Assembly: GCA_029261155.1 (NCBI GenBank)
Contig: JAJDBW010000040.1
Location: 1 to 64,000 of the forward strand
DNA length: 64,000 nucleotides
Reading direction: 5' to 3'
From: Nitrospirota bacterium
GTDB lineage: Bacteria > Nitrospirota > Nitrospiria > SBBL01 > JAADHI01
The position numbers and the translations under genes were made by a program. Positions 5,759 through 51,034 of this stretch are shown piece by piece (within the stretch, counting starts at the first letter, position 1; every line of letters starts with the position of its first letter). A model generated the notes under the pieces. It had not been told where the DNA came from. It made no database searches and saw only the letters and a program-made list of their open reading frames with translations.

Positions 5759-7375
5759 TTGAATACACCACTCAAGAGCAAAATGCAGATGTTTGCCTAT
5801 ATGTCTCCCTCACAACAAGTTGAGTTGAAATCATCACTACTTCGGCTCTTGTTATATGAAAATGAGTCATTCGATTATCTATCTTTATCGGAATTTTATG
5901 ACGATAATAGGATCTTTGACATAGTAGGCAAAATCGGGAAAAGTTGTAGATTGAGTTTAGGTTCAGACCCTAGAACATCAGCGGAGTGTTTGAATAAATT
6001 ATTGTTGGATAAGCCTGATTTCTTGAAAAATTATCCCACGCTAAGGGGTATGTTATTGGATGAGATAGACCTACTGTATAACAATTGGTTATTGGTTAAC
6101 ATGACGAACATGACATCGGAACAGTTGGTAGATTTTGTGGAATTCATCCATTCCAATTATCGGTCTTTGGGTGTGCCTGAAAAGGCGTGCGGATTGAATT
6201 GGGACTTTATTTTTACGGGCTACTTGTTAAATGCGATTAAGTCGGAAAAACAAAGTATCTCTGCAAGGATAGATGAATTTTCTTCTTACATAGGAAAAAC
6301 GTATTCGGTAATAGAATGTGATAATTTAACCTTTCTAGGAACGAAGGCAAGTTTACTAACAATGGGAACAGAGGGGGGCAAGAAAATAGAGCGGCTTAGC
6401 AATACCATCTCAACTGGTATTAAAGATGATGTATTGGCATCTGAGATGGTTGCTATGGTCCTAAGGGAGTTGGAAGAAATTTTTGTTTATCTTGAGTTTA
6501 ATGATATTCCTAAATTCGTTCAAATCTTAGAAAAAAGCCTGGAAGGAGGAGGAGAAAAACTGATTGCATCATACCTAACCCAGCTTGCCAACGAGCTTAG
6601 ATTTCAAGAAGAAGACGCATATAACCTCACAAAACGATTAATTGAAAACATGCCCTACGAAATAAAAACCCTGAAACTAAATGATCCCGTTTCAAAATGG
6701 ATTGCTGCTTTTGAAGACATCGGTCAGTTGCAAGAGGCTATAGAGGGTGTAAAAATTGAGGTAATAAAGAGCATATCCTTGTTAAGCAACTATTTTCTAG
6801 ATCCATTTTCTCGTCAAATTTTTGTCCTTCTATCAGCTATTAGTGATAAGACATCAACTGAACGGATCAGTGCTCCTATTCAAAATTCGACTTTGGATAA
6901 ACTGGTTCTATATAGCAATCTTCATTTTGGTCATCCCTCACCACAGGAACGACAAACATTGTTACAGCAACTTCGAAATAAGCATGCCTCAACAGAACCA
7001 GAACTAAGACTTCAGCACTATATATTCTACGTTGATTTTCAGAATAAGAATTATGACGATAGCCTAACTTCTCTTGATAAGTTGATTTCATCGAGTGAAT
7101 CTCAACGATTAGATTTCTATAAGTTTGCCTACACAGTTATTAATTCTACGGGAACTGCTTTAAATTGCAAAGTAAACAATGATGCACCTATAATGCTCCT
7201 GAGTCATTTGTTATCTACAAAATTCCATTCGAAGTATTGGGATATTGACGATACTGTTGACACATTCGAGACAAGATTACAATTTTATATTGAACATATT
7301 CTTAAACAAGAGCGGGAGGATTTTCCTGAACTTACAGCAGCTTTAGAAATATGCGTAAAAGGTAAGGCGGCCTAA
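5759..7375 (+). CDS. Unknown helical protein, AT-rich islet (C-terminal half?)
   Basis: 538 residues from a TTG at 5759, but the frame is open back to 5627, directly after the TGA that ends the preceding gene in the same frame. No ATG or convincing ribosome-binding site exists in 5627-5780, so the start is doubtful. The product is Leu-, Asp- and Glu-rich and looks largely alpha-helical (LRLLLYENESFDYLSLSEF; LVMVLRELEEI-like stretches), resembling a helical-repeat protein. No known domain was recognised and there are no transmembrane segments. AT-rich codon use matches the upstream gene and not xth downstream. Either a separate gene or the remainder of a broken 880-codon gene. Confidence 0.5.
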   Translation: MNTPLKSKMQMFAYMSPSQQVELKSSLLRLLLYENESFDYLSLSEFYDDNRIFDIVGKIGKSCRLSLGSDPRTSAECLNKLLLDKPDFLKNYPTLRGMLLDEIDLLYNNWLLVNMTNMTSEQLVDFVEFIHSNYRSLGVPEKACGLNWDFIFTGYLLNAIKSEKQSISARIDEFSSYIGKTYSVIECDNLTFLGTKASLLTMGTEGGKKIERLSNTISTGIKDDVLASEMVAMVLRELEEIFVYLEFNDIPKFVQILEKSLEGGGEKLIASYLTQLANELRFQEEDAYNLTKRLIENMPYEIKTLKLNDPVSKWIAAFEDIGQLQEAIEGVKIEVIKSISLLSNYFLDPFSRQIFVLLSAISDKTSTERISAPIQNSTLDKLVLYSNLHFGHPSPQERQTLLQQLRNKHASTEPELRLQHYIFYVDFQNKNYDDSLTSLDKLISSSESQRLDFYKFAYTVINSTGTALNCKVNNDAPIMLLSHLLSTKFHSKYWDIDDTVDTFETRLQFYIEHILKQEREDFPELTAALEICVKGKAA

Positions 7376-42516: not shown

Positions 42517-43701
42517 TCAAACTGCTTTAAGGGGGAGGGTGCTGGTGTCGGCTTTCGCCTGTTTTGGCGGCAGGGTCGGGGTCAAACGGCGAATGACTTC
42601 TTTCGCCGTGCTGCGGTAGGTGGTTAATTTCCCGCCGTAGATGCTGAGCAAGCGCGGGTGCCTTGGATCGTCCACCACCAGCAAGGTTTCGCGGGAACGG
42701 GCATTCAGTTTCCCGCCGCCCGAAGGCAAGACCCGAAGGCCGGCGAAAGCCGACCGGATCTGCGCGCGGGCTTGCGAACGATAGGCCGGAAAATAGGCTT
42801 GCAAGACCTCCAATAGGTAGCGCTTTTCTTCCGCAAGCGGAAGCACCTCGGCGGGATCGCCCTTGAACTCCGTCTCCGTCGTACCCACCAGGGTTTGATC
42901 CTTCCAGGGCATCACGAACACGGGCCGCCCGTCACGGGGTGCTTCCAAATAATAGACGCCTCCGTCGATCCGGCCCGCCAGCAGGATGTGCGTACCTTGG
43001 ACCAAGTCCGTATGGACTTGAGGCATCGCCGGTTCGACACACGCCAAGACTTGATCAACCCAGGGTCCCGCCGCATTCACCACGGTCGAAGCGAAACAAC
43101 CTTGGGCGCGGCCTTCGAAATGGTAGGTGAGGCGATAGCCCTCCGCCTCTCGTAACGCAGTTTCCAAACGCGCGGGCAGATGCAAGGTTGCGCCCAATTC
43201 TAGGGCGGAATGCATTACGGCCTGTGTCAATTGTTGATCGTCGGTCTGTGCATCCCAGTATTGAAAGACGGCTTTCAAATTTTCCGTTTTAATCCCATCT
43301 AATCTCGCCCAATCCGCAGGGGGAACGCGCCGGAAACGGAGCGGCGCCTTCAAACCGCCCAAGAGCGCGTACAAAGACAAACCCAGGGCGATAGTCCAGG
43401 GGCCGCGCTTCGAATCGCGATAAACCGGAATATAAAAGGGAACGCGCTTTACCAAGGCGGGTGCGTTTTTGAGTAGCAGTTCCCGCTCGCGAAGCGACTC
43501 GCGCACCAGGCCCAACTGCCCGCTCTCGAGATACCGCAGGCCCCCATGAATCAACTTGCTGGAGCGGCTCGAGGTGCCGCCGCCGACCTGGTTTTGTTCA
43601 AGAACGAGGACGGCATAGCCCGCCGCCGCAGCGGCCTGTGCGACGCCCGCCCCGTGAATCCCCGCACCGATCACCACAAGATCAAAATCAGGACTGGCCA
43701 T
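42517..43701 (-). CDS. glpD: Glycerol-3-phosphate dehydrogenase, short form
   Basis: 394 residues. FAD-dependent oxidation of glycerol 3-phosphate to dihydroxyacetone phosphate at the membrane. FAD motif VVIGAGIHGAGVAQAAAAAG, then GTSSRSSKLIHGGLRYLE, the GlpD hallmark, NAAGPWVDQV and LLSIYGGKLTTYRSTAKEV. It is about 100 residues shorter than E. coli GlpD: the C-terminal DAO_C domain is absent. Its start overlaps the end of the phosphodiesterase gene by 14 nt, so the two are coupled. Confidence 0.9.
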   Translation of the reverse strand: MASPDFDLVVIGAGIHGAGVAQAAAAAGYAVLVLEQNQVGGGTSSRSSKLIHGGLRYLESGQLGLVRESLRERELLLKNAPALVKRVPFYIPVYRDSKRGPWTIALGLSLYALLGGLKAPLRFRRVPPADWARLDGIKTENLKAVFQYWDAQTDDQQLTQAVMHSALELGATLHLPARLETALREAEGYRLTYHFEGRAQGCFASTVVNAAGPWVDQVLACVEPAMPQVHTDLVQGTHILLAGRIDGGVYYLEAPRDGRPVFVMPWKDQTLVGTTETEFKGDPAEVLPLAEEKRYLLEVLQAYFPAYRSQARAQIRSAFAGLRVLPSGGGKLNARSRETLLVVDDPRHPRLLSIYGGKLTTYRSTAKEVIRRLTPTLPPKQAKADTSTLPLKAV

Positions 43702-44464
43702 GCGATTCTTCCTTTCGTAGCCGCGGGTCCTTTAGCATCCCTTCAACATCCATGGTTTCGATCAAGGCTGCGCCGCGCGCGCAAAGCGCCAAGGCCAGGT
43801 TCGGATCCACGACTTCGTACAAGCACCAGCGCCAGGGACCGGACCAAAGCGCCACCGTCTCCGGGATTTTTTTATAATTGCAGATGAGAACATCGGGCGC
43901 CAAGGCCGCCGCCTCGCGGCGCGCGGCTTCGGACCATTGTGTGAGCACCCAGCCGATGGCCCCCGCGCCGAAGGTTCGCGCAGATGCGAGGGCTGCGGCA
44001 TCGTAGGAAATGATTATGCATTGTTTCGAAACCTCATCGATCGTTTTTAAAACCCGATGGACAACGACATCCCGCCCAAAACGATCCAGGCTTTCCGTTT
44101 TGATCTCGACCATGACCCCTGCCTTCGGCCAGCCTTTGATGAGTTCGACCGCTTGGGCCAAGGTCGGAATGCGGATGTCGTCCTCGGCAAAACGCGCACC
44201 AAAACGCGCGTGTTCCCTGGCCTGAATTTTTTCGATGGCCGCGTAAGGCACATCAAACAAGTTGAGCTTTTCGCCCGTCGTCCGTTCCAGCCTTGCATCG
44301 TGGCAGAGCACGGGCGTCTCATCCGCGCAAAGCTGGACATCGAACTCGATAAAAGGCGCGCCGCAACGTAGGGCCGCCTCCAAGGCGATGAGGGTGTTCT
44401 CCGGGTAGCATGCAGCAAGGCCCCGATGGGCGACGAGTTGCGGGACCTTTATTGATTGGGACAT
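43688..44464 (-). CDS. ugpQ: Glycerophosphodiester phosphodiesterase
   Basis: 258 residues from the second Met (44464), which has GGGAGAAAAAGAG upstream; the first Met (44479) sits inside that ribosome-binding site. GDPD motifs: VAHRGLAACYPENTL with the catalytic His, FIEFDVQLCADETPVLCHD with the metal Glu/Asp and second His, and VMVEIKTE. No signal peptide, so it is the cytoplasmic UgpQ type. It releases glycerol 3-phosphate for GlpD, whose gene overlaps it. Confidence 0.9.
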   Translation of the reverse strand: MSQSIKVPQLVAHRGLAACYPENTLIALEAALRCGAPFIEFDVQLCADETPVLCHDARLERTTGEKLNLFDVPYAAIEKIQAREHARFGARFAEDDIRIPTLAQAVELIKGWPKAGVMVEIKTESLDRFGRDVVVHRVLKTIDEVSKQCIIISYDAAALASARTFGAGAIGWVLTQWSEAARREAAALAPDVLICNYKKIPETVALWSGPWRWCLYEVVDPNLALALCARGAALIETMDVEGMLKDPRLRKEESHGQS

Positions 44465-44501
44465 CTCTTTTTCTCCCAAAAAAATATCTCCACTTTTCTT
44501 G

Positions 44502-44590
44502 CCCCTTTATCAAAGGGGGACCGAGGGGGATTTAAAAAGTGCGGCCCTGTGAAATCCCCCCTTACCCCCCTTTGCAAAGGGGGGTAAAAA
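44502..44590. repeat. Palindromic MITE-like intergenic element
   Basis: Nested inverted repeats made of CCCCTTT/AAAGGGG blocks: CCCCTTTATCAAAGGGGG at the left, GAGGGGGATTT, then AAATCCCCCC and CCCCCCTTTGCAAAGGGGGG at the right. The two arms are roughly inverted copies around about 44545. No ORF. Elements of this look are dispersed in many environmental bacteria. It can fold strongly in the glpK-ugpQ transcript. Confidence 0.65.
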
Positions 44591-44673
44591 CGCTCCTTGG
44601 GATAAAACGTTATTCTTTGCTCTTCTCCAATTCTACATCAGGAAGGCCTCAGGCGTACTGTCTCTCGGATAAA

Positions 44674-46110
44674 TCAGAGTGCGCGAATCGCCATTTTCAT
44701 CTCTTGGAGCCAGTGTTCATATCGCCGAGCCAGCCCTGTATCTCCGACGGGCAAAAAGCTTTGTCCCGCCTCTCCCGATACAGAGGCCCCCAACAAAAAA
44801 GCCAGGCCCCGGGCGGTGGCTTCCGATTCCGGGGAACGGACAACGGTCAGATTCGTTAAATCCGCCAGTCGTTGACAGAGCGCGTCCAGGGTCGAGAGCC
44901 CCCCGCTCACGATTAATTTTTTGGGTGCATCGATGACCTGATTCATCTCATCCAGATTGGCACGGATGAGAAAAAGAATACTTTCGATAACGGCGACATA
45001 GCGGGCGGGCAATCCGCCGTTTCCGACAAAACGCGATTCCATCTTCGGGACCCAGAAAGGCGAGCCGAGTCCGCCGACGCCATTGATGAAAAGGGGCGGA
45101 TTTTTTTCCGCTTCGATCCACTGTCCCGCTGCCTTTGGCCAGGCCTCCGTCTCCTCGATCTCGGCGAACCAGGCCAGGGCCGCGCCCGCGCCGTTGACTG
45201 TGCCTTCGAGGGCGTAAACGGTCTTGTCGGCTTGGCTCAATACAACACTCGACAACAAGCGCCCCGTGTTTAAATGTGATTTCGGCATCACCCGCTGCAG
45301 AAAGGCCCCGGTACCCAGGTTGATGTAGACTCCATCGGCCTGCGGCATTCCATTATGAAAAAGGGCAGCGGCTTGATCACCCGTGACAATCTTCAAAGGA
45401 ATTTTTTGTCCCGCAAAAGAAATATGGCCGAAGGCATTCCGTGTGGGCACACACTGAGGCAAGGCTATTGGAATTTGAAAAGATTCGAGCAAGTGCGGAT
45501 CCCAATCCTGCAAAGCGATATTCCACAGGAGAGTCCGGCCCGCATTCGAGGGATCGGCGAAGACCTGGCCTTCTTCGGTCATACGCGCGCTTAAAAAACT
45601 GGCCAAGGGACCAAAACAGAGTTCGCCCTTTTTCATCGCCGCTTTGACATCGGGAAGGTGGTCGAGGCACCAGCGGAGTTTGCTTGCGCCGTAGTGGGGC
45701 GAAGGATAAAGGCCTGTTTTGTGATGGATGGATTCGGCCTGCGCTTCGAAGGCCTTCATCGCATCGGCGCCGCGGACATCCCGCCAACTGATGACTTTAG
45801 ATAAAGCCCGTCGCGTGTTTCGATCCCAGCAGACAATGCTCGAACGCTGCGTCGCCAAGCCCGCCGCGACGAGATCTTTTTTTTGGGAACCTAAGGTTGC
45901 CACGGCACCTTCCATGGCCATTTGGACAGAGGCGACAAGCGCCTCGGCATCGTGCTCGACCCAGCCGGGTTGTGGGGTCTCGGTGGCGATGTCGCAAAAA
46001 TGCTTGGAGAGCACTTTTCCCTGCGCGTCGAAAATCAATGCGCGGCTGGCGTGTCCGCCTTGGTCTATCGCAAGAAACAAGGCCGTGTTTTTTCCCGTCT
46101 CGGACTTCAT
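44674..46110 (-). CDS. glpK: Glycerol kinase-like FGGY kinase
   Basis: 478 residues from the Met at 46110 (AGGACA upstream). A longer start at 46173 would overlap the kinase gene before it. FGGY fold: phosphate-1 motif AIDQGGHASRALIFD, PGWVEHDAEAL, ATQRSSIVCWDR, GDQAAALFHNG, INLGTGAFL and KKLIVSGGLST. It phosphorylates glycerol to glycerol 3-phosphate in the cytoplasm. The first motif is DQGGHAS instead of DQGTTS, so a related substrate is possible. Context with ugpQ and glpD supports glycerol. No glpF neighbour. Confidence 0.85.
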   Translation of the reverse strand: MKSETGKNTALFLAIDQGGHASRALIFDAQGKVLSKHFCDIATETPQPGWVEHDAEALVASVQMAMEGAVATLGSQKKDLVAAGLATQRSSIVCWDRNTRRALSKVISWRDVRGADAMKAFEAQAESIHHKTGLYPSPHYGASKLRWCLDHLPDVKAAMKKGELCFGPLASFLSARMTEEGQVFADPSNAGRTLLWNIALQDWDPHLLESFQIPIALPQCVPTRNAFGHISFAGQKIPLKIVTGDQAAALFHNGMPQADGVYINLGTGAFLQRVMPKSHLNTGRLLSSVVLSQADKTVYALEGTVNGAGAALAWFAEIEETEAWPKAAGQWIEAEKNPPLFINGVGGLGSPFWVPKMESRFVGNGGLPARYVAVIESILFLIRANLDEMNQVIDAPKKLIVSGGLSTLDALCQRLADLTNLTVVRSPESEATARGLAFLLGASVSGEAGQSFLPVGDTGLARRYEHWLQEMKMAIRAL

Positions 46111-46151
46111 CAATTGAATTGTCCTGGGTTCCAATAAATCCGTGAAGACAT

Positions 46152-47492
46152 TTAGGCAGAGGCTTCCCCACAAGGGAAAGAGACCGAGACCTGAAAGCCC
46201 CCCAAGCGCTCGGACGCGCCGAAGTGAATCTCACCTGAATATTGGGCGACAATTTCCTTGGCGATGGCAAGGCCGAGTCCAAAGCCCTCGATCGATTCAT
46301 CCAAACGCAAACCGCGATCGCTCAGCTGTGTCAAGGCTTCCGGTGTGACGCCGGGGCCGTCGTCTTCGATGATCAACAATAGCGAGGTCTCGCGCGCGAC
46401 ACGCAGGACCACGCGGCCTTTCGCCCATTTACAGGCATTGTCGAGAAGATTTCCCAAGAGCTCTAACAAATCTTCCCGGTCGAAGGCGATGCGTAAACCG
46501 GGAGGGATGTGAGAGACAATCTCCAGCTCCTTATCCCGATGGATCTTTTTTAAGGCATCAAAGAGTACGGCGGTTTCCGCTTCGATCTCAAAGCGCTGGG
46601 CGGGCCCGCCCGAACCCGCAAGACGCGCCCGTTTCAACTCCCGGTCAAGCAGGCGGCCCAGGAAACCCGTTTGTGCGATGAGTTGCTGGTGGATCTCTGG
46701 ATGGTTTTTTATTTCGGGGCGTTCCGCCGTTTGCGTCAAGAGGGTGAGGGGACCTTTTAAGGCGTGGGCGAGGTTGCCCATGGCCTTGCGGGAGCGCGTT
46801 AAGCGGAGGCTCATCCCTTCGATGAGGCGATTGATTTCTTTAACAAAGGGTTTCACTTCATCCGGAACCGCTTCGCTCAATTGCGCAATTTCTCCACGCT
46901 CCAACAATGCCATGTCGCGGCGCCCTCGTTCCAAAGGGGCCAAGCCACTATGAACAATCTTTCTTTGAACGAAGACGAGGATCGTGAGAATCGCAAGAGA
47001 AAGCGCGGCATAACGCAACTGAAAACGTCGTATCTCGGCTTCCATCGCCGATAAATCCTCGGCGATGGCAATGGTAATGGTTTCGTTTTGCTTCCGGTAG
47101 GTGCTCACGAGCAATAGGAGCCCTTGTCCTTGCGGTCCGGAAACATGACGCTCCATCGACTGACCCACACCAAGTGGAGAAAAGGAAAGCGCCTGATCCC
47201 AGAGAGATCGAGAGCGGAGCACGTCGTTTCCGGATAGGATTTGAAAATATCGGCCAGAAAAAGGGCGTTTATAAATCGGATCGACACGCTCCGGGTTTAG
47301 GATGGGCTTGGTCCCTAGGGCACCTATTTGAAGGGCGGCCAGCAAGCCTTCTCCGTCCTGCTTTAAACGGGAAGTGACATGTCCTTCCGTCAGCTGTCGA
47401 TTGAATCGGCTGACGGCTATCCACTGAAGAAGAAAAATAACGACAAGGCTGAGGATAAGACCGACATCGAGCCGCCGTTGAAGAGAACCCAT
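46152..47492 (-). CDS. Sensor histidine kinase (PhoQ/QseC type)
   Basis: 446 residues. TM1 (about 11-28), a periplasmic sensor of about 130 residues, TM2 (about 160-177), HAMP linker, HisKA with His243 (NLAHALKGPLTLL, the PhoQ-like H box), N box DNACKWAKG, G1 DDGPGV and G2 GFGLGLAIAKEIV. It overlaps the response regulator by one base and is the last gene of the cytochrome operon. The signal is unknown; context suggests a redox, oxygen/NO or metal cue. Confidence 0.92.
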   Translation of the reverse strand: MGSLQRRLDVGLILSLVVIFLLQWIAVSRFNRQLTEGHVTSRLKQDGEGLLAALQIGALGTKPILNPERVDPIYKRPFSGRYFQILSGNDVLRSRSLWDQALSFSPLGVGQSMERHVSGPQGQGLLLLVSTYRKQNETITIAIAEDLSAMEAEIRRFQLRYAALSLAILTILVFVQRKIVHSGLAPLERGRRDMALLERGEIAQLSEAVPDEVKPFVKEINRLIEGMSLRLTRSRKAMGNLAHALKGPLTLLTQTAERPEIKNHPEIHQQLIAQTGFLGRLLDRELKRARLAGSGGPAQRFEIEAETAVLFDALKKIHRDKELEIVSHIPPGLRIAFDREDLLELLGNLLDNACKWAKGRVVLRVARETSLLLIIEDDGPGVTPEALTQLSDRGLRLDESIEGFGLGLAIAKEIVAQYSGEIHFGASERLGGFQVSVSFPCGEASA

Positions 47493-48157
47493 TAGGGATT
47501 GACCTTAAAAATATACCCTTGGCCGCGGCGTGTTTCTATTAAGTCTTTTCCGATCTTTTGACGCAGACGATTGACATAGACTTCGATGAGATTGCTGTCC
47601 TTATCCGAATCAAAATCGTAAATATGTTCGGTCAATCGGGTCTTGGATAGGATGACATCGGGGTGCATCATAAAGTAGCGGAGCAGGCGGAATTCGGTGC
47701 CGCTTAGGGAAAGGGCCTTTCCCTCCGGGGTCGCAACGCTTTGTCGCTCTTCGTCAAGCAGTAGATTGGCTACACTCAGCGCGCCGGCAGCCTGTCCCTT
47801 GCTTCGGTGCAGCAGGGCCTTGATCCGGGCAATCAATTCTTCGACGTGAAAAGGCTTGGCAAGATAATCGTCTGCCCCGGCCTGGAAGCCTTCCACTTTT
47901 TCCTGCCAGGCATCCCGGGCGGTCAGAATAAGCACGGGAACGGCATTCTTCTTTTTCCGCCAATCGCGAAGAATCTCCAAGCCGGAACGCTGGGGGAGAC
48001 CCAGATCGAGAATCACCACGTCGTAGGGTTCTTCGCTTCCCATGAAGGCCGCATCGATCCCGTCATACGATTGATCAACTGCAAAACCGGCCGCTACGAG
48101 ATCGCTTTTTAAGCCGCGACTTAAGGCTTTATCGTCTTCGACCAGCAGAAGTCTCAA
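47492..48157 (-). CDS. OmpR-family response regulator
   Basis: 221 residues. Receiver with acidic pocket VEDDK, phospho-acceptor Asp51 (VILDLGLP), Thr (LILTARD) and Lys (LAKPF), followed by an OmpR/PhoB winged helix (LSGTEFRLLRYFMMHPDVILSKTRLTEHIY; LIEVYVNRLRQKIG). Such regulators bind tandem half-sites one helical turn apart, matching the 19-bp repeats found at 50140-50158 and 50874-50892. It overlaps the PepSY gene by 4 nt. Confidence 0.93.
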   Translation of the reverse strand: MRLLLVEDDKALSRGLKSDLVAAGFAVDQSYDGIDAAFMGSEEPYDVVILDLGLPQRSGLEILRDWRKKKNAVPVLILTARDAWQEKVEGFQAGADDYLAKPFHVEELIARIKALLHRSKGQAAGALSVANLLLDEERQSVATPEGKALSLSGTEFRLLRYFMMHPDVILSKTRLTEHIYDFDSDKDSNLIEVYVNRLRQKIGKDLIETRRGQGYIFKVNP

Positions 48158-48498
48158 TCCTCATCCTCCACTTCCGTCGTGAGCAACACCCCGGTCTTGG
48201 CGTCATATTTCAATTCAGTAACGACCCCATCTTCGTCGAGAAGTTCCAGCTCATAAATAATCTTCCCCTCTTCTTCCTCCAGCTCGACCTCAATGATCTC
48301 TCCGGAATGCTTCGTTCGGACCTTGTCGATGATCTCGGTCAGCGGACGGATCTGGCCTCTTTCCTTAAGTATTTTCGCCCGATCATGGTCTTCCTCGGAA
48401 AAAACAAGCCCACTAGTTGCGAGGCCTAACAAGGCGATGAGAACAAACGGTAGCGCCTTCAGTCTTCTCTTTTGGAAAATGAGATTTAATCGTCCCAT
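48154..48498 (-). CDS. PepSY-domain periplasmic protein
   Basis: 114 residues. N-terminal signal or anchor helix (ALPFVLIALLGLATSGLVFS), then one PepSY unit: ILKERGQIRPLTEIIDKVRTKHSGEIIEVELEEEEGKIIYELELLDEDG and YDAKTGVLL. Very acidic C-terminus (TTEVEDED). Single-PepSY proteins often sit beside two-component systems and may tune the sensor. It overlaps the DHC gene by 13 nt. Confidence 0.88.
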   Translation of the reverse strand: MGRLNLIFQKRRLKALPFVLIALLGLATSGLVFSEEDHDRAKILKERGQIRPLTEIIDKVRTKHSGEIIEVELEEEEGKIIYELELLDEDGVVTELKYDAKTGVLLTTEVEDED

Positions 48499-49043
48499 TG
48501 GCCACCTCCCGGAATTTTTACCGTCTCCTCGTCATAGATTCCTTTTTCCGCAAGGGTATGGCAGGCCGCACAGTTGCTCAAGCTTCGCACATCCTTATTT
48601 TCTTGAAGTAGACGTTTGGGAATTTCGTCGTGCTGCCGCACAATGTAAGGCAGTTCCGTAATGCGAATCGGGACCTGCTTTCCTTTTAAGGAACGGACAA
48701 TGCGCTCCGAGCGCTTGTCCGAGACACGGTCTGCCGCATTGCTGACCAGGTAGGCGCGTAAGGCGGCTTGGTCTTCCGGCGCGAGCGCGGCATTATCGCC
48801 AAAATGATCGGAAAGGTTTCCCATGATCTTCTCCCACGATGCTGCAGGAAGTAAACCCGGTTGATAGGCAAAGTGACACGCGCCGCACTCTTGCGCGTAC
48901 TGTTCGTTTCGAACCGGCGCGACATCCGGACGGGATGCCCTTCCTTTGGATTCGAAGATTTCCGTTTCGCCGTTCGCCGCCCATTGTCCCAGGGCAACAA
49001 AAAGGACCAACAACACTAAACCTATCCCGTTTCTTGTTTTCAT
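48486..49043 (-). CDS. Diheme cytochrome c (DHC family)
   Basis: 185 residues from the Met at 49043, which has GGGAGG upstream; the frame extends further but without a signal. Signal peptide (GIGLVLLVLFVALGQWA). Two haem c sites: CGACH near 57 and CAACH near 160. The segment FAYQPGLLPAASWEKIMGNLSDHFG is diagnostic of the DHC family. In Rhodobacter and Shewanella DHC passes electrons to SHP, whose gene is immediately upstream here. Confidence 0.88.
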   Translation of the reverse strand: MKTRNGIGLVLLVLFVALGQWAANGETEIFESKGRASRPDVAPVRNEQYAQECGACHFAYQPGLLPAASWEKIMGNLSDHFGDNAALAPEDQAALRAYLVSNAADRVSDKRSERIVRSLKGKQVPIRITELPYIVRQHDEIPKRLLQENKDVRSLSNCAACHTLAEKGIYDEETVKIPGGGQWDD

Positions 49044-49078: not shown

Positions 49079-49486
49079 TTATTGCGCCTTGAGGTACATC
49101 AAGAGATGTCCCTTTTCCCCGGCCGTGCATTCGCGCCCCCAGGCCCACTTGCAATTTCGCAGGAACCATTTTTCGATGAATTTGATGTCGGTCAATCGTT
49201 TGGCATTCGCCGAGGGCGCCATTGCCTCGATGATCTTTCCTGTCTTAACATGTTTCCCGGTTTGGCGAAGGTCGGCCCCATGACAGCTGCTGCAACCCCG
49301 ATCTTGGCCGCCCGAAGGATCTGGAAACTTTTTCTTCCACATCATCGCCCCTGTATCGGCGCTGAACAATCCGCCGCTTTTTGCTTGATATCCAGACAAA
49401 AGCTCGTCCACGACAGCAGCCTTTGCCGGAGGGGCGAGGAGAAAAATGAGCGCTCCCGCAATCCCAAAGATAATAATCCGTTTCAT
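49079..49486 (-). CDS. SHP-like oxygen-binding cytochrome c (DUF1924)
   Basis: 135 residues. Signal peptide (IIIFGIAGALIFLLAPPAKA), one haem site CSSCH near residue 66, and the family's C-terminal stretch FIEKWFLRNCKWAWGRECTAGEKG. In Rhodobacter sphaeroides haem protein (SHP), an Asn in this stretch is the weak axial ligand and the conserved Cys pair forms a disulphide; the matching Asn and two Cys are present. It binds O2 or NO in known members. It overlaps cytochrome b561 by 4 nt. Confidence 0.87.
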   Translation of the reverse strand: MKRIIIFGIAGALIFLLAPPAKAAVVDELLSGYQAKSGGLFSADTGAMMWKKKFPDPSGGQDRGCSSCHGADLRQTGKHVKTGKIIEAMAPSANAKRLTDIKFIEKWFLRNCKWAWGRECTAGEKGHLLMYLKAQ

Positions 49487-50094
49487 CGCAGTCCCTCCTC
49501 TAAGGCTGGCGCGTCGGCAGTCGCCTTCGGTTTGTATCCGGTGATCATCGCCTTAATCAGGTTTTCCCGGTGCGCAAAGCTGGAGAACAAGACACCGGCA
49601 ACGTGAAGTCCGATGAGAAGCGCCGTTCCGCCAGCCAGCACCTCATGAACCTCTTCAAGCGCCTTGATCCAAAAAGGATCGACACCCACCATCATCCCTG
49701 CAAAGGGTCCGGCCATTTTTTTTCCGCCATAAAAGGCCAGGCCCGATACCGAGGTCAGCAGCAGTCCGAGCAGAAGCGCAATCACCATGCTGCCCCCCGC
49801 AGGCCCATGCCCCAGGTAGCGCTTAGCCCTGAAGGTGACCAGATCTTTTAGGTAGTTCAGGACGACCCGTGGGCGATACATAAACTCCGAAAACCGGGCA
49901 TGACGCGTTCCGACCAGGCCCCACAGAAGGCGAAACAACACCAGCGCAATCACGCCATAGCCCGCCTGGACATGGAGTTTGAGATAATCCTCCCCCGCAA
50001 GAAAAGCGATCCCAACAAACAACACCAAACTCCAGTGGAACACCCGCACCACTGGATCCCAGACTTTAATCTCCCCTTCATGTCGATCCATCAC
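49483..50094 (-). CDS. Cytochrome b561-type membrane electron donor
   Basis: 203 residues with four hydrophobic helices and His residues in the right places (VVRVFHWSLVLFVGIAFL; LKLHVQAGYGVIALVLFRLLWG; VHEVLAGGTALLIGLHVAGVLF), the Ni/Fe-hydrogenase b-type/b561 pattern that binds two b haems. It should take electrons from the quinone pool and pass them to DHC and SHP. First gene of the operon, with a GGAGG Shine-Dalgarno. Confidence 0.9.
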   Translation of the reverse strand: MMDRHEGEIKVWDPVVRVFHWSLVLFVGIAFLAGEDYLKLHVQAGYGVIALVLFRLLWGLVGTRHARFSEFMYRPRVVLNYLKDLVTFRAKRYLGHGPAGGSMVIALLLGLLLTSVSGLAFYGGKKMAGPFAGMMVGVDPFWIKALEEVHEVLAGGTALLIGLHVAGVLFSSFAHRENLIKAMITGYKPKATADAPALEEGLR

Positions 50095-50139
50095 CCACCT
50101 CCTTATCGGTCCTGTCTATACGCACAGCCTATCAAGCCA

Positions 50140-50158
50140 AGCTGAATTGAAGCTGAAC
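50140..50158 (-). promoter_or_regulatory. Direct-repeat regulator site 1 (cytochrome operon)
   Basis: AGCTGAATTGAAGCTGAAC on the + strand: two GCTGAA half-sites 11 nt apart, the spacing used by OmpR-family dimers. A TATAGA -10 box lies 20 nt further towards the gene (minus strand 50120-50115), and the -35 position overlaps the site, an activator-type layout. It lies 46 nt before the b561 start. Confidence 0.7.
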
Positions 50159-50197
50159 TTAAAATAATATAAAGAATCAATTCGTCCTTAAAAGCAC

Positions 50198-50230
50198 CAC
50201 CGGAGGCAAAACTGTATTTTGCCTCCGGTG
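50198..50230 (-). terminator. Rho-independent terminator of the gene at 50239
   Basis: A perfect 14-bp stem (50198-50211 with 50217-50230) and 5-nt loop, starting 9 nt after the stop codon. On the minus strand it is followed by GCTTTT. Confidence 0.75.
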
Positions 50231-50238
50231 CCTTCCTG

Positions 50239-50748
50239 TTATTTGCGAATCAAAAAATCATTCACAAGTCCGTTCTCTCCCTCGACCCGGAGTAACACCA
50301 TCGTCCCGCTTTTCACATTTTTCATCTTTGTCGAAGCGGCATCTTTTAATCGATAGTTTTTTGATTTTCCGTCCGGCGTTTCGAGGGCAAGATCTCTTAT
50401 CGCGCGGTCATAGGAGAGAACTTTTCCAAATACCGAGATATCTTGTTCGGCGTGTTCAGGTTTACCCTCTTGGGTCAGCCGATCGATATCGATGATTTGG
50501 TTTCCTTCATCGAACTCCATAAGAAGATGGTCTCCCACTTTTAGATCCATCACTCCATCCCGCTCCGCATCTTTCATGCTGATGAAGCGATCCGTTTTTT
50601 CGTTCGTTTCCACTTTGGCAATCTTCCCCATCATTTTCGATACCTTCCCGGTTAAAAACCGGTGATCGTGTTTTGTCGTCGCGGCAAAAGCCAGAGACGA
50701 GGCAAAAAACACAGCCAAAACGGGGAGCGCGATTTTTTTGATATTCAT
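50239..50748 (-). CDS. Periplasmic two-unit beta protein, unknown
   Basis: 169 residues with a clear signal peptide (MNIKKIALPVLAVFFASSLAFA|AT). It holds two similar beta units: FLTGKVSKMMGKIAKVET...DLKVGDHLLMEF and VFGKVLSYDRAIRDLALETPDGKSKNYRL...MVLLRVEG. The first resembles the protein at 10808-11104. No Cys and no cofactor motif. AAGGAGG precedes the ATG. The same 19-bp regulator site as for the cytochrome operon lies 126 nt upstream, so it probably belongs to that regulon; it might serve in stress or metal sensing, but this is a guess. Confidence 0.75.
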   Translation of the reverse strand: MNIKKIALPVLAVFFASSLAFAATTKHDHRFLTGKVSKMMGKIAKVETNEKTDRFISMKDAERDGVMDLKVGDHLLMEFDEGNQIIDIDRLTQEGKPEHAEQDISVFGKVLSYDRAIRDLALETPDGKSKNYRLKDAASTKMKNVKSGTMVLLRVEGENGLVNDFLIRK

Positions 50749-50873
50749 GATGATGATCCTCCTTTTTTATTGGATTGATTGTGGCTACTTTTTTATGTTG
50801 AGAAACCTTCCCTCGATAAAACAGAGGTGAATTTCCATCTGTATTTTTAGAACGAGACCATCCTATCGTAGCC

Positions 50874-50892
50874 AGCTGAATTGAAGCTGAAC
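50874..50892 (-). promoter_or_regulatory. Direct-repeat regulator site 2
   Basis: Exact copy (19 of 19 bases) of the site at 50140-50158, in the same orientation, in the 319-bp region upstream of the periplasmic protein gene. Half-sites at 50875-50880 and 50886-50891. Confidence 0.7.
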
Positions 50893-51034
50893 GTGAATTG
50901 TTATTTAAAAAACCGGATTAATAAGGGAGTCGGCTGAGGGGTTTTTCCAATGAAGAGGGAGAGAGAAAAAGAGTAAGCGAAGGCCCGCCAAGCCGATTGA
51001 GCAAGGTGGGCTTCTGAAGCATGAAAATCACCAG

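Follow-up and report, generated by a model that had tools for sequence, protein, structure and literature searches.

A direct repeat in two promoters of a Nitrospirota SHP locus as the predicted operator of the operon's own response regulator

The window (the whole stretch of DNA analysed here, 64,000 nucleotides, positions 1 to 64,000 of contig JAJDBW010000040.1 from the Nitrospirota assembly GCA_029261155.1) carries six minus-strand genes, overlapping or nearly so, that encode a cytochrome b561-type protein, a DUF1924 protein, a diheme cytochrome c (DHC), a PepSY protein, a response regulator (RR) and a sensor histidine kinase (Table 1). We take DUF1924 to be the SHP (Sphaeroides heme protein) family. 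The profiles PF09086, PF09626 and PF01292 all scored above their cut-offs in adjacent genes on one strand, which is the core of the SHP operon, and the kinase exhibits both periplasmic signature motifs of the SK1 type, with the PepSY gene placed between the DHC and RR genes. The aspartate D51 of the RR is kept in all six aligned rows. In the SHP sequence, read by eye, the W-x3-N-C-x7-C spacing is preserved, which matches the residues numbered W84, N88, C89 and C97 in SHP (PMC2909971). These genes make up the six-gene SHP operon already described, which comprises CytB, SHP, DHC, Orf1, RR and SK1 in several proteobacteria (Meyer et al. 2010, PMC2909971) and whose SK1 kinase is defined by variants of SGVYWQ and RSRSLWD (PMC2909971). 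Close behind the kinase gene, on the minus strand at 42517-46173, lie genes resembling those for glycerol kinase, glycerophosphodiesterase and glycerol-3-phosphate dehydrogenase (named by eye), and read-through into them from the SHP operon is possible.

Table 1. Features of the SHP locus and of the neighbouring transcription unit (positions in the window).
Feature	Positions	Strand	Remark
SK1-type sensor histidine kinase, BqsS/CarS-like	46152..47492	-	periplasmic motifs SGRYFQ and RSRSLWD
OmpR/PmrA-type response regulator (RR), BqsR/CarR-like	47492..48157	-	predicted binder of both sites
Small exported PepSY protein (Orf1 / DbfQ-like)	48154..48498	-	PF03413, E 2.1e-7
Diheme cytochrome c (DHC)	48486..49043	-	PF09626, E 3.8e-39
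SHP (DUF1924), c-type heme protein	49079..49486	-	PF09086, E 1.3e-33
Cytochrome b561-type membrane protein (Ni_hydr_CYTB), operon gene 1	49483..50091	-	PF01292, E 1.8e-24
Predicted -10 TAGGCT, first promoter	50126..50131	-	15 nt from the start of the second TTCAG
Site 1, GTTCAGCTTCAATTCAGCT	50140..50158	-	spans the -35 position; cytochrome b start ~50 nt downstream
Perfect 14-bp inverted repeat, terminator-like	50198..50230	.	between the 50239 gene and the cytochrome promoter
Exported protein, 169 aa with signal peptide, second predicted target	50239..50748	-	
Predicted -10 TAGGAT, second promoter	50860..50865	-	TANNNT at the offset kept across genomes
Site 2, identical 19 nt	50874..50892	-	ATG of the 50239 gene lies 126 nt downstream

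The terminator-like repeat separates the operon from a second unit, the gene at 50239, so that two separate promoters are required. The long 5' leader of the 50239 gene gave no Rfam match up to E 1 in a search for conserved RNA structure, and a structured leader was dropped as a candidate (z-scores just -0.56 and -0.88). The single-sequence model of the encoded protein was useless for fold assignment (mean pLDDT 38).

An earlier note on this DNA had reported a 19-bp site present twice, identical and in the same orientation. Direct comparison confirmed both copies of AGCTGAATTGAAGCTGAAC in the window (100% identity). Because both downstream genes are on the minus strand, the functional reading is the minus-strand one, GTTCAGCTTCAATTCAGCT, with two TTCAG half-sites 11 nt apart. 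The plus strand of the window contains three separate repeated sequences of at least 19 nt, the site included, while any repeated 19-mer was found in just one of 60 windows simulated with a first-order Markov model. The other two are exact direct repeats of 24 nt (3628, 4495) and 21 nt (32455, 32617). The genome-wide search that the note had proposed was carried out on the host genome (3.56 Mb, 90 contigs, 95.6% complete), where GCTGAA-N5-GCTGAA has 2 matches, both in these promoters (reversed control: 1), as has the extended pattern TTCANNTTNNNTTCA-N11-TANNNT (control: 0). A wider regulon in this genome was considered and dropped, as relaxation of the pattern added one AT-rich place, equal to the control count; four places in the genome match the 16-mer with 2 mismatches. 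The two promoters are 76% identical over 46 nt, with differing flanks around a 19-nt core that is 100% identical.

The placement of the first copy across the -35 region, also suggested previously, agrees with the 11-nt phase and the fixed distance to the -10 element. The hexamer then proposed as the -10 element, TATAGA (50115-50120), is probably wrong: its distance from where the second half-site begins is 26 nt, off the conserved 15-nt offset, and it has no counterpart at the second copy. It was dropped, and the -10 element is probably TAGGCT (50126-50131). Both predicted -10 hexamers are weak, which fits an activated promoter and proves nothing.

The distribution of the site follows that of the RR. 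Among 58 related genomes, DUF1924 scored above the cut-off in 6, and the RR (E 1e-60 or better) was found in the same 6. The strict form of the site, TTCAG.TT...TTCA[GT], taken from the list of relaxed-pattern matches, occurs at eight places, all in the genomes G000, G002, G014, G016 and G017, i.e. in 5 of the 6 genomes with the RR and in none of the 52 without it (Fisher p 1.3e-6, which overstates the true strength of the association, as the genomes are akin). The identical 16-nt core, TTCAGCTTCAATTCAG, stands just upstream of the orthologous operon in G002, which belongs to the same family, and in G014 and G017, which belong to the same order, while G016 has the variant TTCAGCTTGGGTTCAG there. 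In the sixth genome with the RR, G015, the contig begins inside the cytochrome b gene. The earlier note had read the repeat as an OmpR-type tandem site for the operon's own RR, and the counts for the strict site support this.

A second sample was selected by the regulator protein only: the best 80 of 417 confirmed RR relatives from a single scan with the RR alignment, coming from Nitrospirota, Gammaproteobacteria, Betaproteobacteria and Magnetococcales. At least four of these loci (L080, L081, L082 and L084) appear, by length, to be on the same contigs as those of G002, G017, G015 and G016, genomes that had supplied RRs to the query alignment. With up to 3 mismatches allowed, the 16-mer gave 66 matches in the 80 loci, as opposed to 2 for the reversed motif. 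For TTCA-N7-TTCA, the operon strand has 80 matches and the opposite strand 10. In 49 cases a TANNNT lies at offset 15 from the second TTCA, with no such case on the opposite strand, and each of the other offsets from 8 to 25 has at most 2. The relaxed form (A or C at the third base, up to 3.6 kb upstream of the RR) was identified in 51 of the 80 loci; it is absent from 20 loci with enough upstream DNA, and 9 more are cut short. It precedes 21 of 25 operons with SHP, 17 of 29 with cytochrome b or DHC and without SHP, and 13 of 26 with none of the three. The site follows the regulator, since it precedes RR operons of all three kinds. Its presence before PepSY-RR-SK1 operons that have no SHP also favours the operon's own RR, as the note had assigned it, and the assignment is, as far as sequence comparison goes, strongly supported. 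Alignment of 57 distinct sites yielded TTMAGYTTSAWTTMAK, with both half-sites conserved. The search itself did not require G5 (56/57) or T8 (57/57). Covariation between the recognition helix and the half-sites showed no clear pattern, and TTCAG and TTAAG loci share similar helices. Several gammaproteobacterial loci (L099, L112, L123, L127 and others) keep the same site before cytochrome b, PepSY, RR and SK1 genes, with no SHP or DHC detected, and in L097, L108 and L113 a single cluster ahead of the RR contains two sites, one for each part of the cytochrome genes.

Taken together, these data make it very probable that the repeat is the operator of the RR that gene 5 of the downstream operon encodes, and that the RR activates both units. 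A much less probable candidate is a different OmpR-family regulator, a PmrA/QseB-like paralogue encoded elsewhere, with the operon's RR merely co-regulated. OmpR-family boxes with 11-nt TT(C/A)A(G) repeats are alike, such regulators can have half-sites in common, and the host genome gave 51 RR candidates at a loose first look; against this, none of the 52 relatives without this particular RR has a strict site, though they are rich in other RR candidates, and the site also stands ahead of PepSY-RR-SK1 operons that lack cytochrome genes. It is more doubtful still that the second copy is a functionless relic of a promoter duplication: the resemblance of the two promoters over 46 nt would suit such an origin, but the core has stayed identical between diverged flanks, and G002 has the same core, -10 offset and leader before a gene that shares the signal peptide of the 50239 protein. 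The least probable explanation, a promoter element for an alternative sigma factor, would account for the strictly fixed distance to TANNNT, as in a two-part promoter, but the -10 element is of the TAnnnT type that the main sigma factor reads, and ahead of it lies a tandem repeat in 11-nt phase whose two halves are both conserved. The element also tracks an RR gene, and an operator of this architecture has been defined experimentally for BqsR (PMC4682146).

If the repeat is indeed the operator of this RR, the SK1 kinase would read a periplasmic signal, with the small PepSY protein tuning it, and would cause phosphorylation of the RR, by family resemblance at D51. Two RR molecules, arranged head to tail, could then occupy the pair of TTCAG half-sites that spans the -35 position and bring RNA polymerase to the TANNNT element, which begins 15 nt from the second half-site. 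The RR would thereby activate the six-gene SHP operon, including its own gene and that of the kinase (a positive feedback), as well as the gene encoding the exported 50239 protein, which is terminated separately. Both the binding of the RR and activation rather than repression are what we infer here; tandem half-sites in 11-nt phase across the -35 position, at a fixed distance from the -10 element, are the arrangement of an activator that takes over -35 recognition.

As for the signal, BqsS binds Fe2+ through the periplasmic Glu48 (PMC12666569), whereas the DbfRS system answers outer-membrane damage, modulated by the PepSY protein DbfQ (PMC12714742). DbfQ is reported to bind the sensor domain of the kinase, and modules of this kind are reported across phyla (PMC12714742). 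By analogy, the signal may be Fe2+ or outer-membrane stress. Among 79 aligned kinases, that of the window included, 68 have a residue at the position of BqsS E48 (matched by eye), and in 57 of these, the window kinase among them, it is Glu, usually in the context HDxE. Because this Glu is kept, our best guess is a divalent metal, Fe2+ first; the position of BqsS E45, also matched by eye, is Q in the window kinase, which counts against Fe2+.

The predicted regulon, at least the cytochrome operon together with the 50239 gene, had been proposed before and is supported by the strict pattern, which finds exactly these two promoters in the genome. In G002 the exact core occurs three times, always with TANNNT at the same offset. 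Core 1 precedes the SHP operon. The gene behind core 2, on a separate contig, shares a conserved promoter, leader and signal peptide with the 50239 gene, and its mature protein is unlike the 50239 protein, being short, acidic and His-rich. Core 3 precedes an operon for an outer-membrane factor and a membrane-fusion protein (efflux OMF-MFP), near a contig end. In the comparison of 50560-50900 with L077 (contig C105 of G002), the promoter, leader and signal-peptide DNA is conserved between two genera and the mature proteins differ, as if the 50239-type promoter and signal peptide were a reused cassette. The SHP gene of G002 (L038 / L047, contig C69, about 6003-6283) is split over two reading frames; it looks frameshifted, or there is a sequencing error, and the rest of the operon and the site are present.

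Five whole genomes contained 15 sites (reversed control: 0), and the first gene downstream, judged from translations by eye, encodes a cytochrome b-type protein, SHP or PepSY at 9 of them and other proteins at 6. Elsewhere the site also precedes genes for exported EF-hand proteins (Sedimenticola), for DUF2202 proteins (tubeworm symbionts) and for a c-type cytochrome. At seven loci (L096, L098, L100, L104, L110, L133 and L156) from Sedimenticola and its relatives, a second site precedes an exported protein with EF-hand-like repeats near the regulator operon; the Pfam search covered L110 of these. The EF-hand targets may be connected with the calcium effects reported for CarRS.

The closest full-length RR among solved chains is PmrA/BasR (PDB 8jo2, 4s04; E 5e-43). 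However, the window RR falls below the NCBIfam equivalog cut-offs for both PmrA (201 of 330 bits) and QseB (193 of 345 bits). Its receiver is 60% identical to CarR (PDB 8gc6; ungapped, position by position), as expected of a CarR/BqsR homologue, and its DNA-binding domain matches 9yfa (E 1.6e-28). Three relatives of the RR (from the taxonomic order of one of the loci) have receivers 88-93% identical to the CarR of the PDB and presumably come from Pseudomonas. Upstream of the RR, two of these CarR-like loci have TTCAGCTTGAATTAAG and one has TTCAGCTTCAATTAAG, in each case at the same distance from the -10 element, so mixed TTCAG/TTAAG boxes stand before CarR-like RRs. Of the 20 loci counted in this set of RR relatives, 12 had a box with the -10 element (10 of the 30 were left out, as the RR start was not located). 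Kinases beside RRs 93% identical to CarR have SGRYF and RSRSLWD and align with the window kinase, by which the latter is classed as of the BqsS/CarS type. A gene for a small exported PepSY protein upstream of the RR completes the likeness to the BqsRS/CarRS/DbfQRS modules. On sequence grounds, the window module is of this type, and the site can be regarded as a TTCAG variant of the BqsR box. Because the kinases neighbouring CarR-like RRs share the SK1 motifs and can be aligned with that of the window, the SK1/Orf1 pair known from work on SHP seems to belong to one family with BqsRS/CarRS and DbfQRS.

The SHP operon with this regulator and the BqsR-type box as a kind are known already; the new part is the link between the two, together with the local regulon of two promoters. 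Neither was found in the literature searched, which was mostly non-subscription: none of the matches listed combined an SHP or diheme term with BqsR, DbfR or CarRS, and searches with the motif letters, or with DUF1924 and response regulator, returned nothing relevant. More tentatively, and with somewhat less than even confidence, we suggest that the SHP pathway (in this reading quinol, cytochrome b, diheme cytochrome c and the oxygen-binding SHP, in that order of electron flow) is an output arm of a BqsRS-type system responding to Fe2+ or envelope stress across Nitrospirota and Proteobacteria. If so, the TTMAG box would name the physiological signal of SHP and its partner proteins, i.e. the exported 50239 protein and the EF-hand, DUF2202 and efflux proteins. 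A defined box at a fixed distance from the -10 element would give, for any genome, a list of the genes switched together with SHP, and it ties SHP to a regulator family whose signals (Fe2+, membrane damage) have been reported in model bacteria. The function of SHP therefore becomes directly testable.

Among known systems, the operons of Meyer et al. (2010) share with the window the same six genes, the SK1 signature motifs and the W-x3-N-C-x7-C spacing; they are proteobacterial, whereas the present one is from Nitrospirota, and in the passages seen of that paper no operator is named and SK1 is not tied to BqsRS (PMC2909971). Regulators in Vibrio that go by the name CarR, and are possible orthologues, have footprint motifs that differ from the window site, GACA-N6-TACA for V. 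vulnificus (PMC10433830) and, for V. cholerae, an RstA-like box (PMC9178039), which is a point against the present assignment. AgrR was considered as a closer parallel and rejected, as it binds an inverted repeat (PMC7380067). DbfQRS of Vibrio cholerae likewise has a small periplasmic PepSY protein encoded just upstream of the RR and kinase genes; the word cytochrome is absent from the main text of that report, and its available passages name no DNA site (PMC12714742). There is also a close correspondence with BqsRS (CarRS) of P. aeruginosa (PMC4682146, PMC12666569), which shares with the window a PmrA-like RR, relatives of the kinase with SGRYF and RSRSLWD and a PepSY gene upstream; the window module, for its part, sits inside an SHP operon. 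The BqsR operator, TTAAG-N6-TTAAG, consists, like the window site, of two pentamers 6 bp apart, of which the downstream one overlaps the -35 element of the bqs promoter in P. aeruginosa (PMC4682146). There, 432 candidate operators with up to 2 pentamer mutations were listed (PMC4682146), in contrast to the two strict sites of the window genome, a comparison made at unequal thresholds. In phase and -35 position the window boxes coincide with the BqsR box, and both their pentamers are TTCAG, one letter off the TTAAG consensus.
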